Positions 26,091 through 49,049 of a DNA stretch of 64,000 bases are shown in pieces (the stretch's first letter is position 1; each line of letters begins with the position of its first letter). The position numbers and the translations under genes were made by a program. This DNA is from a virus: positions 26,241-90,240 of the IMG/VR virus record IMGVR_UViG_3300025362_000005; one strand, given 5' to 3'. The notes beneath the pieces are model-generated. The model did no database searches and was not told where the DNA came from. It saw only the letters and a program-made list of their open reading frames with translations.

Positions 26091-26494
26091 TTTATACACT
26101 TGTCAATTATCTGTTTCAGTTTATTACATGTTAGAGCACAAGTAGTGTCTTTAAATAAAGTTGTTGACATATCTTGATTGTTGTCTTTAATGTCAGAAAC
26201 TACCCGTATAGTGTGGATTAATCGTGTACGGTCTTTTGAAACGTGTAGCCAGTATTCTATGTATACTCTATCTCCATTATTTACGTAATCATAGTTGATA
26301 GAAATATCCACTCCATGCACTTTAGGAATATCATCATATGATAGCTTGGGAGTAATATGCACTTCTCTATTCTCAGTATCATAATAAGAAGTAAAACACT
26401 CAACTAACTTAATGTACTTTGCTGATAATATCGTATACATAGTACCTTTACTGACTTTATCCATACTAATATAATAAGTAATATTTTTTTCCAT
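26087..26494 (-). CDS. Hypothetical protein (135 aa)
   Basis: ATG at 26494; a TGGAGTGAAAAA site lies upstream. Beta-rich (DISINYDYVNNGDRVYIEYW), with possible distant likeness to the 143-residue neighbour. Function unknown. Its upstream region is full of inverted repeats. Confidence 0.62.
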   Translation of the reverse strand: MEKNITYYISMDKVSKGTMYTILSAKYIKLVECFTSYYDTENREVHITPKLSYDDIPKVHGVDISINYDYVNNGDRVYIEYWLHVSKDRTRLIHTIRVVSDIKDNNQDMSTTLFKDTTCALTCNKLKQIIDKCIK

Positions 26495-44283: not shown

Positions 44284-44829
44284 ATGGGTAGTTTTAGGCA
44301 TCCCGGAAGCAAGGGAGAAGCGTTTAGTAAACAGGCAACACTCAGTGTTGAAGGTATGCTAGGCACCATGAATAAGGTTATACAAGAAACTACTATTGAG
44401 TTATATGCTAGGGCAGTAATAAAGACACCTATTAAAGAAACTGATGCAATTAATTCATGGGGGGTTTCAGTTAATACTCCTGATGGGGCTAATAAATTAA
44501 TGGTGTTGGACAACAATGAAAAAGAAAGTGTTATTCAGCAGATTAGTTCAGTGATTAAAGACACTAAATTAAGGGATAATTACTTTTTGAAAAATGATAT
44601 TTATTATATACTTTTATTAGAAAATGGTGGCTATGATGGTATACCTATTCATAGAAATGACCCTTATCCCCCTTGGTATCCTGAGAGCAGGTATCCACGA
44701 CCTTTTACACTATTGACATCAGGTAGAGGGGGCCCAATATCTAAAAAGGCACCAAAGGGTATGGTTAAAGTGACAATGTTAGAATCTGATGATGTTTTTA
44801 GAGACATGAGTACAAAATACGGGGAGTAA
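44284..44829 (+). CDS. Tail completion protein (HK97 gp10-like)
   Basis: 181 residues. An N-terminal helix (MLGTMNKVIQETTIELYARA) then VIKTPIKETDAINSWGVSVN and LENGGYDGIPIHRNDP resemble HK97 gp10-type connector/tail completion proteins, which have a helix, a TPxxTGxLRxSW segment and a beta-sheet. Order of genes supports this. Confidence 0.7.
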   Translation: MGSFRHPGSKGEAFSKQATLSVEGMLGTMNKVIQETTIELYARAVIKTPIKETDAINSWGVSVNTPDGANKLMVLDNNEKESVIQQISSVIKDTKLRDNYFLKNDIYYILLLENGGYDGIPIHRNDPYPPWYPESRYPRPFTLLTSGRGGPISKKAPKGMVKVTMLESDDVFRDMSTKYGE

Positions 44830-44832
44830 ATA

Positions 44833-45255
44833 GTGGCAAATACGGCACAGAATGATATAATTACGGTAATGCAGACACCACTCGCATCGCTATCTACAAT
44901 TAGTGCAAGTGATGTAGCATATATAAATGATGAGTACTCTCCGACAAGAGGCACGGCGTGGTTACAGACGTGGATGTTTTTCACTGAATCAACACAGGCA
45001 TCATTAGGGACAACAGGACAGCAACGGTATGATGGATATATGCAGATAGATGTGAGTGTGCCTGTAGGAAATGGTCGCACTGATGTGAACCCAATACTAG
45101 CAGAGTTGATGACAGCGTATAAAAGAGGCACTACATTGACAAATGTTAATATAAGTGTAGAATGTAAACGTGCTTGGGAGAGTACGCCATATAGTGGTGA
45201 AGGTTGGTATGTCGTGCCCCTCAATGTTAGGTGGTACGCCTACACTAGTATTTAG
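44833..45255 (+). CDS. Tail terminator protein, with recoded 3' end
   Basis: 140 residues from GTG. Position and size, and RYDGYMQIDVSVPVGNGRTD, then GEGWYVVPLNVRWYAY, match tail terminator proteins that cap the tail tube. The last 30 codons (45163-45252) also occur after the TnpB gene at 46517-46609: same protein, 16 silent base changes. So this 3' end was probably acquired together with TnpB. Confidence 0.8.
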   Translation: MANTAQNDIITVMQTPLASLSTISASDVAYINDEYSPTRGTAWLQTWMFFTESTQASLGTTGQQRYDGYMQIDVSVPVGNGRTDVNPILAELMTAYKRGTTLTNVNISVECKRAWESTPYSGEGWYVVPLNVRWYAYTSI

Positions 45256-45272
45256 TTAAGGAGTTTGAGGTA

Positions 45273-46490
45273 ATGAATAAAGGGTACAGAGTTAGATTAT
45301 ACCCAAACAAACAACAAGAATCTCAAATAAACATAAATACAAACTGTTCTAGGTTTATATACAATGCTATGTTAGCAGAGCATATTGAGGTATACAACCA
45401 ATTACAGGATGACAAAGAAGAATTGTATGCCTATAAGTATAAAAAAGCAAGTGAATATAAAGTAGATTTTCCTTGGTTAAAAGAAGCATCCTCATGGGCA
45501 TTAAGTGAGTCGTGTAGGAATTTAAGTAGAGCATATGCAAACTTTTATCGTAATATAAAACAAGGAAAGAAAGGCGGGTTCCCTAAATTTAAAAGCAAAA
45601 AGGCAGTAAAGTGGAGTTATACAGAAGCCCAACAGAGAGGTGGTATTCGTATTTTAAATAATAAAATTCATTTACTTAAAATGGGGTGGGTAACTTTCAG
45701 GGGATTATCCAAAGACTTCCAAGGAATAATAAAATCTGTTACCGTTACTAAAACAAGAACTAATAAATATTTTGCTTCTATTTTAGTCGAGTGTGGTGAT
45801 GTAAAAAGAGAAAGAGTTTCTGATAATGTTGTAGGAATTGATTTAGGGCTAAAAGAATTGGCAGTTTGTAGTAATGGAGAATTTATCACTGGCATAAAAG
45901 ACAGAATGGCAGAGATAGAGAATAAAATAAAACAACAAAATCGCCATTTATCAAGAAAGAAATTAGGTAGTAATAGGTATGAAAAATGTAAATTACAATT
46001 AAATAAATTGTGGGAATATAGAAACAATTATTTGAGTCATTTTCAATGGCATTTAGTGAATAAACTTTGTAGTGAAAACCAAGCTATAGGGTTAGAGACT
46101 TTGAATGTTATAGGAATGAGAAAGAATAGAAAATTATCACATGCTATTCAAAATATTAATTGGGGGAGTCTAGTTAGCAAATTGGAAGAAAAGGCTAAAG
46201 AGTATAATACTGTTGTGTATAAAATTGACAGATGGTTTCCATCAACTAAATTATGTAGTAGTTGTGGTGCATTGCATGAAATGCGTTTAAGTGATAGAAT
46301 ATACTCATGTGGTTGCGGTAATGAAATAGACAGGGATTTGAATGCGGGTATTAACATTCGTAATGAAATGTTAGATAATATATCGTTGAAGAACAGCGAT
46401 TACAGACGTGGAGAGACAGTAAAACCAGTGAGACTAGATTATGAAAGCGATGGTAGTTTTGTTGAAGCGTTAACTATGAAAATTGCATAA
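45273..46490 (+). CDS. tnpB: TnpB RNA-guided nuclease
   Basis: 405 residues with N-terminal YRVRLYPNKQQE, typical of TnpB. The RuvC active site is complete: GIDLG (D190), GLETLNVIGM (E275) and IDRDLNAGINI (D355), with a zinc ribbon C328-x2-C331...C346-x-C348. TnpB cuts DNA with a guide from an omega RNA that overlaps its own 3' end. No TnpA transposase is nearby, so it lacks its own transposition partner. ATG follows AAGGAGTTTGAGGTA, 15 bp after the tail terminator stop. Confidence 0.95.
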   Translation: MNKGYRVRLYPNKQQESQININTNCSRFIYNAMLAEHIEVYNQLQDDKEELYAYKYKKASEYKVDFPWLKEASSWALSESCRNLSRAYANFYRNIKQGKKGGFPKFKSKKAVKWSYTEAQQRGGIRILNNKIHLLKMGWVTFRGLSKDFQGIIKSVTVTKTRTNKYFASILVECGDVKRERVSDNVVGIDLGLKELAVCSNGEFITGIKDRMAEIENKIKQQNRHLSRKKLGSNRYEKCKLQLNKLWEYRNNYLSHFQWHLVNKLCSENQAIGLETLNVIGMRKNRKLSHAIQNINWGSLVSKLEEKAKEYNTVVYKIDRWFPSTKLCSSCGALHEMRLSDRIYSCGCGNEIDRDLNAGINIRNEMLDNISLKNSDYRRGETVKPVRLDYESDGSFVEALTMKIA

Positions 46491-46516
46491 AGTATTTAGG
46501 CAATAAGAATGGATTT

Positions 46517-46609
46517 TGTAAGAGGGCGTGGGAAAGTACACCATATAGTGGTGAAGGTTGGTATGTTGTGCCGCTCAATGTTAGGTGGTACGCATATACA
46601 TCAATATAA
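46517..46609 (+). pseudogene. Displaced 3' fragment of the tail terminator gene
   Basis: 93 bp coding CKRAWESTPYSGEGWYVVPL and ten further residues to a stop, without a start codon. All 30 residues equal those at the end of the intact gene at 44833-45255, yet 16 of 93 bases differ, all silently. It is the original gene tail, cut off by the TnpB insertion. Confidence 0.9.
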
Positions 46610-46633
46610 AAATTTTAGCTTTGGAGGCATAAA

Positions 46634-47602
46634 ATGAGTGAGTTTAGTTCAGGGTCACAGAGAGACCTATATTATAAAGAAGAGACAGTATATGGTGTAG
46701 TTGAAGGTGGAGTAGCTACAGGATTTACTGAAATACGAAATACTGAGGATTCTATCAGTTTAGTGCGTGATAATTTCGTATCAGATGAGAGACGCGGTGA
46801 CAGAGGTATCCACGACATGAGGTTGGGAAATAAACAGCCCGCAGGGGATATCGGGTTTGAGTTTAGTTATGAGGCATTTGATGACTTTTTAGAAGGTGCA
46901 CTTTGTAGTGATTGGGGGGCAACTACTGCTAATGTATTGGAGAAGGGTGTTGTTTTTCATTCTTATTCAGTGGTAAAAGCTTTTTCTGATATTTTAGAGT
47001 ATCAGTTGTATCCCGGTGGTGTAGTAAACACTATGTCTTTGGATATTAATCCAAATGCGATGGTAACGGGTTCATTTGGCATGATTTTTCAAGATATGTC
47101 TAATGGTACGGGGGTTTATGTAGATACCCCTGCGGCTTCAACTACCAACACACCTTTCGATGGTTTCACAGGTACAATAGAAGAGGGTACAGAAGCAGGG
47201 ACAACAATAGCAGTTGTTTCTTCACTGAGTCTGAGTTTAGACAATGGATTTGAACGAAATTTTGTATTAATGAGTAATAAGAATCCACAGGTCACATGGG
47301 GAAAATCAAATGTAACAGGCAGTATGGTATTATATTTTGAAGACACCGATGAGTATGATAAATTTGTAAATGAAACAGAATCAGGCTTAACAATTACTTT
47401 AGAGGATTTACATACAGGAACATCAGGTAATAAATATAAAATTAGGCTTCCACGTATCAAATATACGAGTGCAGATGCTCCGGTAAACAGTGATGGTTCA
47501 GTTATGATTACTATGAATTTTCAAGCACTTGATGATGAATCAGTAGCTGACGGTGGGATAGCAACAAACATACAGATTACACGTATTGTTGCAGTAGCAT
47601 AG
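46634..47602 (+). CDS. Major tail tube protein 1
   Basis: 322 residues. MSEFSSGSQRDLYYKEETVY and LVRDNFVSDERRGDRGIHDM, plus TSADAPVNSDGSVMITMNFQ, are the layout of siphovirus tail tube proteins. ATG after TTTGGAGGCATAAA. A second, longer paralogue follows 10 bp downstream. Confidence 0.85.
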   Translation: MSEFSSGSQRDLYYKEETVYGVVEGGVATGFTEIRNTEDSISLVRDNFVSDERRGDRGIHDMRLGNKQPAGDIGFEFSYEAFDDFLEGALCSDWGATTANVLEKGVVFHSYSVVKAFSDILEYQLYPGGVVNTMSLDINPNAMVTGSFGMIFQDMSNGTGVYVDTPAASTTNTPFDGFTGTIEEGTEAGTTIAVVSSLSLSLDNGFERNFVLMSNKNPQVTWGKSNVTGSMVLYFEDTDEYDKFVNETESGLTITLEDLHTGTSGNKYKIRLPRIKYTSADAPVNSDGSVMITMNFQALDDESVADGGIATNIQITRIVAVA

Positions 47603-47612
47603 GGGGTAGAGC

Positions 47613-49049
47613 ATGAGCGATTTTAGTTCAGGGTCACAAAGAGACCTATTTTACACATTAGAAGATAGCTTTGGTTCAGGGCCTAGTGTTCTGAATATGG
47701 CTGAGATAAGGAATACTGAAGACTCCATTAGTTTAGTACGAGACAATTTTGTTTCTGATGAACGGCGTGGTGACAGAGGTATTCATGATATGCGGTTAGG
47801 CAATAAACAGCCTGCCGGTGACATGGGATTTGAATTAAGTTTTGATGAATATGATAGATTGATGCCATTAGCACTTTGTAGCGATTTATCTGCAAATGGT
47901 ATTACTACTACGAATATGACAGCAACGTATATAGATGCACCTACAGGAGTTATGACTTCAACAGGTGAAACATTTGTAACAAAGGGATTTGAAGTAGGGG
48001 ATAAAGTAGTTACAACGGGTTGGAGTGATGGTGGAAACAATGGCACATTTACTATAAATGCAGTTACTGAAGAGACTATGACGCTTTCACCTATTACCGG
48101 TTTAGTAACAGTGGCAGTAGGAGATGCAGAAGCAACAGTAGATTTAGCGGCATGGAGTCCATGGACAGCACCTTATACTGATTTATCGGTATCGGTAGTA
48201 GCTACGATAACAGTAAATACATTTGTAAGAGCAAGTGGTAGTTGGATAACAGACGGCGTAAGAGTTGGGGATGCAATAACAACCACAACTTTTGATGTTG
48301 AAGCAGGAAACAATTTAACTACTTATGTAACTGCTTTATCAGCATTGACTATGACGGTAGCAGGAGCACTTACAACTGCTATTGCAGATGTAGGGGTTTT
48401 CAACACAACTGCAAGAGAAATCAAGAAAGGAACAACGGTAAGAAGTTTAGTTCTTGAAAAGGCCTTTACAGACATAGCGGAATATCAGAAATACACGGGT
48501 GGGATTGTAAACACGTTGTCATTAGACATCAATCCAAACGCAATTGTAACAGGCTCCTTTGGGATGCTTTTCAAAGATGCGGTAAACAGTACATCAGCAT
48601 ACCATAGTGGAACCCCTGTAGCAACAAGCACCAACAGACCTTTTGATGGATTTAGTGGGTATATAAATGAAGCAAATGCCGCAAACGCACTTGCAAGTGG
48701 ATTAAGCATTAGTTTAGACAATGGATTTGAACGAAACTTTGTATTAATGGCAAATACTTGTCCACAAATGACAAGTGGTAAATCAAACGTAACAGGGAGT
48801 ATAACTTATTACTTTCCTGATCAGACGCTTTACAACAAGTTTGTTAATGAAACAGAATCTAGTTTAGAGGTACGACTAGTAGATGATGACTTAGAAGGAT
48901 TTATTGTTACATTACCAAGAATCAAATACACCAGTGCGGATACACCAATCAACAGTGATGGAGCTGTTATAAACACAATGAATTTTCAAGCACTTGATGA
49001 CTCAACAGAAGCATCAAACATAATTATTAGGAGACAACCTACGGCATAG
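47613..49049 (+). CDS. Major tail tube protein 2, paralogue with inserted beta domains
   Basis: 478 residues. N-terminus SSGSQRDLFY...NTEDSISLVRDNFVSDERRG and the C-terminal half (DINPNAIVTGSFGMLFKDA; KYTSADTPINSDGAVI) closely match tube protein 1. Between them about residues 92-265 are an insertion of two similar beta modules (TFVTKGFEVGDKVVTTGWSD; SWITDGVRVGDAITTTTFDV) that would project from the tube surface. May form part of the tube, or a decorated variant. Confidence 0.85.
   Translation: MSDFSSGSQRDLFYTLEDSFGSGPSVLNMAEIRNTEDSISLVRDNFVSDERRGDRGIHDMRLGNKQPAGDMGFELSFDEYDRLMPLALCSDLSANGITTTNMTATYIDAPTGVMTSTGETFVTKGFEVGDKVVTTGWSDGGNNGTFTINAVTEETMTLSPITGLVTVAVGDAEATVDLAAWSPWTAPYTDLSVSVVATITVNTFVRASGSWITDGVRVGDAITTTTFDVEAGNNLTTYVTALSALTMTVAGALTTAIADVGVFNTTAREIKKGTTVRSLVLEKAFTDIAEYQKYTGGIVNTLSLDINPNAIVTGSFGMLFKDAVNSTSAYHSGTPVATSTNRPFDGFSGYINEANAANALASGLSISLDNGFERNFVLMANTCPQMTSGKSNVTGSITYYFPDQTLYNKFVNETESSLEVRLVDDDLEGFIVTLPRIKYTSADTPINSDGAVINTMNFQALDDSTEASNIIIRRQPTA

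Follow-up and report, generated by a model that had tools for sequence, protein, structure and literature searches.

Why does the end of a phage tail-terminator gene occur twice, once on either side of a tnpB gene, and why do the two copies differ in many bases without differing in a single amino acid? The locus lies in a 64,000-nucleotide (nt) stretch of viral DNA, hereafter the window, which covers positions 26,241 to 90,240 of the IMG/VR record IMGVR_UViG_3300025362_000005 (90,240 bases, possibly incomplete). Our analysis suggests that the recoded gene end, tnpB, a predicted omega-RNA scaffold and the displaced native gene end together probably constitute an RNA-guided homing element, of the type known from the WHO elements of yeasts and the mobile open reading frames (ORFs) of fungal mitochondria.

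A tail-terminator gene with two ends

In the late operon of the window, tnpB starts 17 bases after the tail-terminator gene and is itself followed by a tail tube gene. The final 30 codons of the tail terminator and its stop are present both in the intact gene and beyond tnpB, on one contig (Table 1). A preliminary description of the window, made from its letters alone, had reported this duplication with 16 silent differences, and translation and BLASTN confirm it exactly: both copies read CKRAWESTPYSGEGWYVVPLNVRWYAYTSI followed by a stop, 16 of 93 bases differ, and no codon changes meaning (TAG and TAA both being stops). Within the window the gene-end match has an E-value of ~2e-23, and all remaining BLASTN matches are at noise level. 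The 16 differences are spread across all 93 bases. Since only about a fifth of random single changes in either copy would be silent (~20%), the chance that all 16 are silent is ~1e-11, which suggests that the ends most likely diverged while both were still translated, and hence in separate phages. No gene precedes the displaced copy, and we rejected the idea that it is itself translated, as reading by eye revealed neither an in-frame start nor a joined gene.

Two viral contigs, L003 and L004 (89% identical in the protein), carry a single tail terminator each, with tnpB missing from their records, and thus present the empty site. Their similarity to the window stops at the gene end and resumes at 46517, the flanks joining at L003:4331; the junction in both relatives is the one given in the preliminary description. 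To the left of it the window is identical to L003 at 72 of 78 positions, while to the right the intact end matches at 17 of 24 and the displaced end at 21 of 24. Because of this drop in identity the intact gene looks chimeric, its 3’ end having another source; of the two ends, the displaced one is more likely to be native. The gap narrows when all 93 bases are counted (69 matches for the intact end, 75 for the displaced), so that the call depends mainly on the first bases, being clear over 24 and weaker over 93.

A separate contig, L005, holds a second version of the cassette, in which an intact gene end, tnpB and a degenerate remnant all occur. Its backbone is nearly identical to that of the window (99.7% over 2.7 kb on the right, 28/29 immediately on the left), yet its cassette is only 84% identical, with 81% identity in the TnpB protein and 14 of 93 differences in the gene end, and with a conserved scaffold. 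Diverged cassettes in near-identical backbones look as if the cassette had been exchanged as a unit. At L005:1387-1420 a TAG interrupts what appears to be the end of another tail-terminator allele; our guess is that the L005 remnant is the degenerate end of such an allele (..GSRVxVTVSWYAYTSI, to be compared with ..VPVNIGWYAY of Roseobacter phage CRP-6).

The nuclease and its predicted guide

The TnpB of the window has the domains PF12323, PF01385 and PF07282 above cut-off (OrfB_IS605 / Cas12f1-like TNB domains) and matches the ISDra2 TnpB structures 8bf8/8h1j with E=2.6e-59; the preliminary naming of this gene is thereby confirmed, as is that of the tail terminator by its PF13554 and phrog_179 matches. 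Its RuvC residues D190, E275 and D355, which the preliminary description had already read as a complete site, align with the PDB sequence and are invariant in 17 phage TnpBs, so that the protein has the complete triad and, by sequence, is not a nuclease-dead TldR. Against L005, tnpB shows purifying selection, with a ratio of non-synonymous to synonymous change (dN/dS) of 0.15. In line with the absence of TnpA first described, we found neither a Y1 transposase (TnpA) nor a serine resolvase in the 90,240-base record, which may be incomplete, and the scan used found no left-end hairpin in the window. By these searches the element has neither the TnpA nor the palindromic left end of an autonomous IS200/IS605 element. 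A TnpB scan of genome contigs returned no match. Group I or II introns and inteins were considered and rejected, as the insert is preceded by a complete gene that has its own stop and nothing in Rfam matches over 44700-47400; nor is the nuclease of the LAGLIDADG or GIY-YIG type, being TnpB.

The preliminary description had proposed, as a hypothesis, that the omega-RNA guide reads the displaced fragment, and comparison with L005 now supports this placement. The window and L005 cassettes are alike through ..GGCAATAAGAATRGATTTTG and unlike thereafter (the scaffold being conserved to ..GAATRGATTTT), as would be expected of a scaffold followed by a guide, and the end of the conserved predicted scaffold coincides exactly with the start of the displaced copy. 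The T at 46517 is common to scaffold and guide, and we number the guide from 46518. Consistent with a functional RNA overlapping the end of tnpB, synonymous difference between the two cassettes is 0.11 in the last 45 tnpB codons, versus 0.47 across the gene. The same scaffold fold is predicted in both, with modest folding z-scores (-0.95 and -1.88), and a pattern search for further scaffold copies returned known contigs only.

Would such a guide spare the gene that carries the element? Of the first 12 guide bases, those at positions 5, 6, 8 and 11 do not match the intact copy in the window, giving 4 mismatches in 16 and 5 in 20; the preliminary estimate of about five in the first 20 bases was therefore exact, and four of them fall in the 12-base zone proximal to the target-adjacent motif (TAM). 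That description had also proposed a comparison with relatives lacking TnpB, and in L003 the guide region is indeed closer to the displaced end, with a mismatch only at position 8 in the first 16. ISDra2 TnpB needs ~12 TAM-proximal pairs, and double mismatches at positions 1-12 abolish its cleavage (PMC10097598). By this rule the recoded end would be expected to resist the element’s own guide, and a close empty relative with an L003-type allele may be cuttable. The intact end of L005 has two mismatches to the window guide together with a target-adjacent change from GAAT to GACT.

Table 1. Features of the tail-terminator/tnpB locus (window coordinates).
Feature	Position	Strand	Remarks
Complete tail-terminator gene	44833-45255	+	140 amino acids, GTG start; PF13554 E=2.8e-13; phrog_179 E=9e-21
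Candidate TAM side of target, ..GTAGAAT	45158-45163	+	L003 has same bases; L005 has GAC
Recoded, putatively donor-type tail-terminator 3’ end	45163-45255	+	16/93 silent differences vs displaced copy
tnpB	45273-46490	+	405 amino acids; RuvC D190, E275, D355 and zinc-ribbon Cys conserved
Predicted omega-RNA scaffold	46370-46516	+	overlaps tnpB 3’ end; terminal hairpin ~46474-46512
Predicted guide, start of displaced target	46517-46537	+	boundary from window/L005 comparison
Displaced, putatively native tail-terminator 3’ end	46517-46609	+	remnant, unjoined to gene; candidate right-hand homology arm
Tail tube protein gene, next in late operon	46634-47602	+	PF18906 E=1.5e-45; directly 3’ of tail terminator in L003

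Downstream of the element, the tail tube gene and the gene at 47613-49049 are tandem tail-tube-like paralogues with similar starts.

Recurrence at other phage tnpB loci

The layout is not confined to the window. We compared the two sides of tnpB at the protein level across 166 non-redundant phage tnpB loci, with 1,650 mismatched locus pairs as null. The window scored 177, followed by L143 (123), L145 (96), L029 (83) and L123 (68), against a null maximum of 66, and all five showed the same architecture after inspection. When the match was anchored at the scaffold end, scores were 50 for the window, 30 for L145 and 26 for L123, with a null maximum of 15. The architecture is clear in L145, L123 and L143 and less clear in L029, where the copies are alike mainly at the protein level, and in L148, which brings the total to about five or six of the 166 loci, in unrelated genes. 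The geometry is constant, with an intact, diverged copy on the 5’ side of tnpB and a remnant that starts from the scaffold end (..TTCAC in the other loci). In L145 and L143 the gene is antisense to tnpB, and it is the gene start that is displaced instead of the end. Recurrence at unrelated genes, some of them antisense, argues against a chance event peculiar to a single gene end.

Individual loci add detail. The empty site of L145 exists in L149, and the L145 remnant continues into native flank; a search of the L145 record for the empty site of L149’s own element gave scattered flanks only. The L123 remnant is the native piece, since the following gene begins within it (MTSKLSWKK...); when the L123 gene was searched as protein, no relatives in phages were found. 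The layout is looser in L148, whose guide matches 17 of 18 bases where a long ORF begins ~105 nt downstream (L148:3683-3870). This ORF, of at least 749 codons, has no Pfam family match and by eye looks like a tail sheath. Two close relatives of the L145 element, L150 and L147, retain a left-end hairpin, and none of the recoded cases does; this contrast is suggestive only, as such a hairpin is present in just 39 of the 91 loci with a right end.

Several other loci were rejected as instances of the layout: L122 and L133, which have non-coding repeats around tnpB; L080, whose long repeat does not lie at the guide; L160, where two HesB-like genes are not at the guide; and L140 and L249, where similarity is weak or distant and not at the guide. 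The last of these is Staphylococcus phage 80B, whose tnpB, 14 nt after a gene, is a clean insertion without duplication when compared with SEP1 (L257/L258). As separate observations, the repeats in the Lactobacillus phages L122 and L133 are ~180-190 nt long, 86-87% identical and promoter-like in content, and the HesB-like genes that flank tnpB in L160 have diverged from each other. The empty site of 80B in SEP1 has a 5-base overlap only, and a tnpB elsewhere in SEP1 is 82% identical, making the pair a contrast case in isolated phages. Two related phages, G006 and G007 (L235-L242), carry five and four standalone omega-RNA scaffold copies besides two and one tnpB genes, respectively. Most of these copies are ~140 nt long (one is just 34 nt), each is followed by different sequence, and we found no recoded duplicates at them; possibly they form a multi-guide set or are non-autonomous elements.

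Proposed homing, its alternatives and its relatives

The best supported reading of the locus is homing. The empty site, the scaffold/guide boundary and the recurrence all favor the suggestion, made in the preliminary description, that tnpB was acquired in a homing-like manner together with the gene end of a related phage. Also counting for it are the second cassette in a near-identical backbone, the reduced synonymous change at the tnpB end, and searches that turned up neither TnpA nor a left end. Such an element could have originated when a TnpB element inserted into a phage gene and the diverged gene end of a relative restored the gene on the tnpB side, leaving an end that the guide would not match. 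The displaced fragment would then play a double role, its first ~16 bases serving as guide and the whole fragment as right homology arm. During mixed infection TnpB would cut an uninterrupted allele at the guide-matching stretch, and repair from the element-bearing genome would copy in tnpB along with the recoded gene end, so that the recipient would regain its gene with a guide-resistant end while its old end was shifted behind tnpB. We infer here that the guide is transcribed and processed, that TnpB cleaves, and that repair drives the transfer.

Several points weigh against homing. The L003 match carries one mismatch inside the 12-base zone. Across five cases, mismatches are not significantly concentrated in that zone (13/60 versus 23/157, P=0.15), and the recoding may therefore be ordinary allelic divergence that protects by chance. 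For L123 and L148, only a single base within the zone sets the protected copy apart. Finally, no target was found for the L005 guide GGCAGTAGAGTGTAGGTGACAG, which differs from that of the window, whether in the window, in L005’s own record or in the viral contigs when sought with a codon-degenerate pattern; a pattern search for it brought up known contigs only. Homing with this guide does not account for how the L005 version of the cassette entered this backbone.

The same lack of concentration fits an account in which the arrangement is a passive scar: an IS605-type tnpB would have inserted with its right end beside the TAM, and recombination with a diverged relative would have rescued the gene and removed the left end, with TnpB a passenger. 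This would account for the exact coincidence of the remnant’s start with the scaffold end and for the missing left-end hairpin, and plain insertions of the kind seen in 80B do exist. However, two features are not predicted by it. One is that a single site in backbones this similar should be occupied by two diverged cassettes, with the divergence bounded by the ends of the cassette; the other is that purifying selection should have persisted on tnpB and the omega-RNA region if the element did not move. We consider it rather unlikely for the element as it now stands, although this route may describe the first origin of such elements.

Other explanations fare worse. That the copies are identical in amino acids would suit a duplication of the gene end in place when tnpB inserted, followed by drift or escape selection in one copy; drift, however, should have left mostly non-silent changes in the gene-less displaced copy, where 16 of 16 are silent, and escape selection should have placed changes mainly in the first ~16 bases, whereas they are seen across all 93, so that we find this history very improbable. 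Tandem paralogues predating the insertion were rejected, as L003 has a single copy (as does L149 for L145). An assembly chimera of co-occurring strains must be considered for any metagenomic contig, the more so as no independent contig covers both copies: L006, 99.98% identical over 4.2 kb, begins at 45752 and confirms only the right half, from tnpB to the displaced copy. Yet that half is repeated there, L005 holds all three parts on a separate contig, and the layout recurs in L145, L123 and L143, which makes a chimera more improbable still.

The closest parallels to homing of this kind come from eukaryotes. In the WHO elements at FBA1 of Torulaspora and Lachancea yeasts, a LAGLIDADG endonuclease, whose cleavage has been shown experimentally, is encoded between a full-length, cleavage-resistant gene with a donor 3’ end and the displaced old 3’ end (Coughlan et al., 2020, PMC7282813). 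There too the fragment is a homology arm, the host gene is essential, no splicing is involved and the same mechanism is proposed (PMC7282813). The mobile ORFs of fungal mitochondria, at Allomyces atp6 and at Glomus atp6, atp9, cox2 and nad3, likewise combine a foreign, recoded C-terminus on the resident gene with an endonuclease ORF and a displaced native C-terminus (PMC3630166). WHO elements differ in having a protein endonuclease and living in yeast chromosomes, and mobile ORFs in using LAGLIDADG or GIY-YIG nucleases in mitochondria without an RNA guide; in the phage element the nuclease would be RNA-guided and the displaced fragment would also be the guide. Unlike in WHO elements, the putative target gene at other phage tnpB loci may lie in either orientation. 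The window element would act like these elements but is not one of them, since its nuclease is TnpB.

With TnpB of IS200/IS605 elements (ISDra2, PMC8612924) it shares the TnpB fold and active site, and its predicted scaffold and guide would likewise come from the 3’ end of tnpB and from the downstream flank. Gene drive of insertion sequence elements through plasmids by TnpB, which cuts sites lacking the element, as the window TnpB would, is documented (PMC11870625). IS200/IS605 elements have left and right ends, are moved by TnpA and are protected by interruption of the target, whereas neither a TnpA nor a left end was found for the window element, which would be protected by an intact but recoded target gene. 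Homing endonuclease genes that lie at exchange boundaries in phages also drive marker exchange between co-infecting phages, with protein-only recognition, and the text of a survey of them names no TnpB-type (RuvC, IS605, RNA-guided) nuclease (PMC10448857). We found no description of an element like the present one in a search of open-access literature. Engineered home-and-rescue gene drives pair a nuclease with a recoded rescue of the targeted gene (PMC7968924).

It is about as likely as not that phages repeatedly evolve natural RNA-guided home-and-rescue drives, with a displaced piece as guide and a recoded, cut-resistant replacement, retargetable at each insertion and independent of transposase. 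TnpB helps transposons persist; here it appears to function as a homing nuclease of phages, needing no transposase and bringing along a recoded rescue of its target gene. If so, this would give phages a reason to keep tnpB, would explain the mosaic ends of some phage genes, and would allow the acquisition of a target by an RNA-guided nuclease to be observed outside CRISPR. It would also define a class of homing elements that joins the layout of WHO elements and mobile ORFs with self-programmed RNA guidance.
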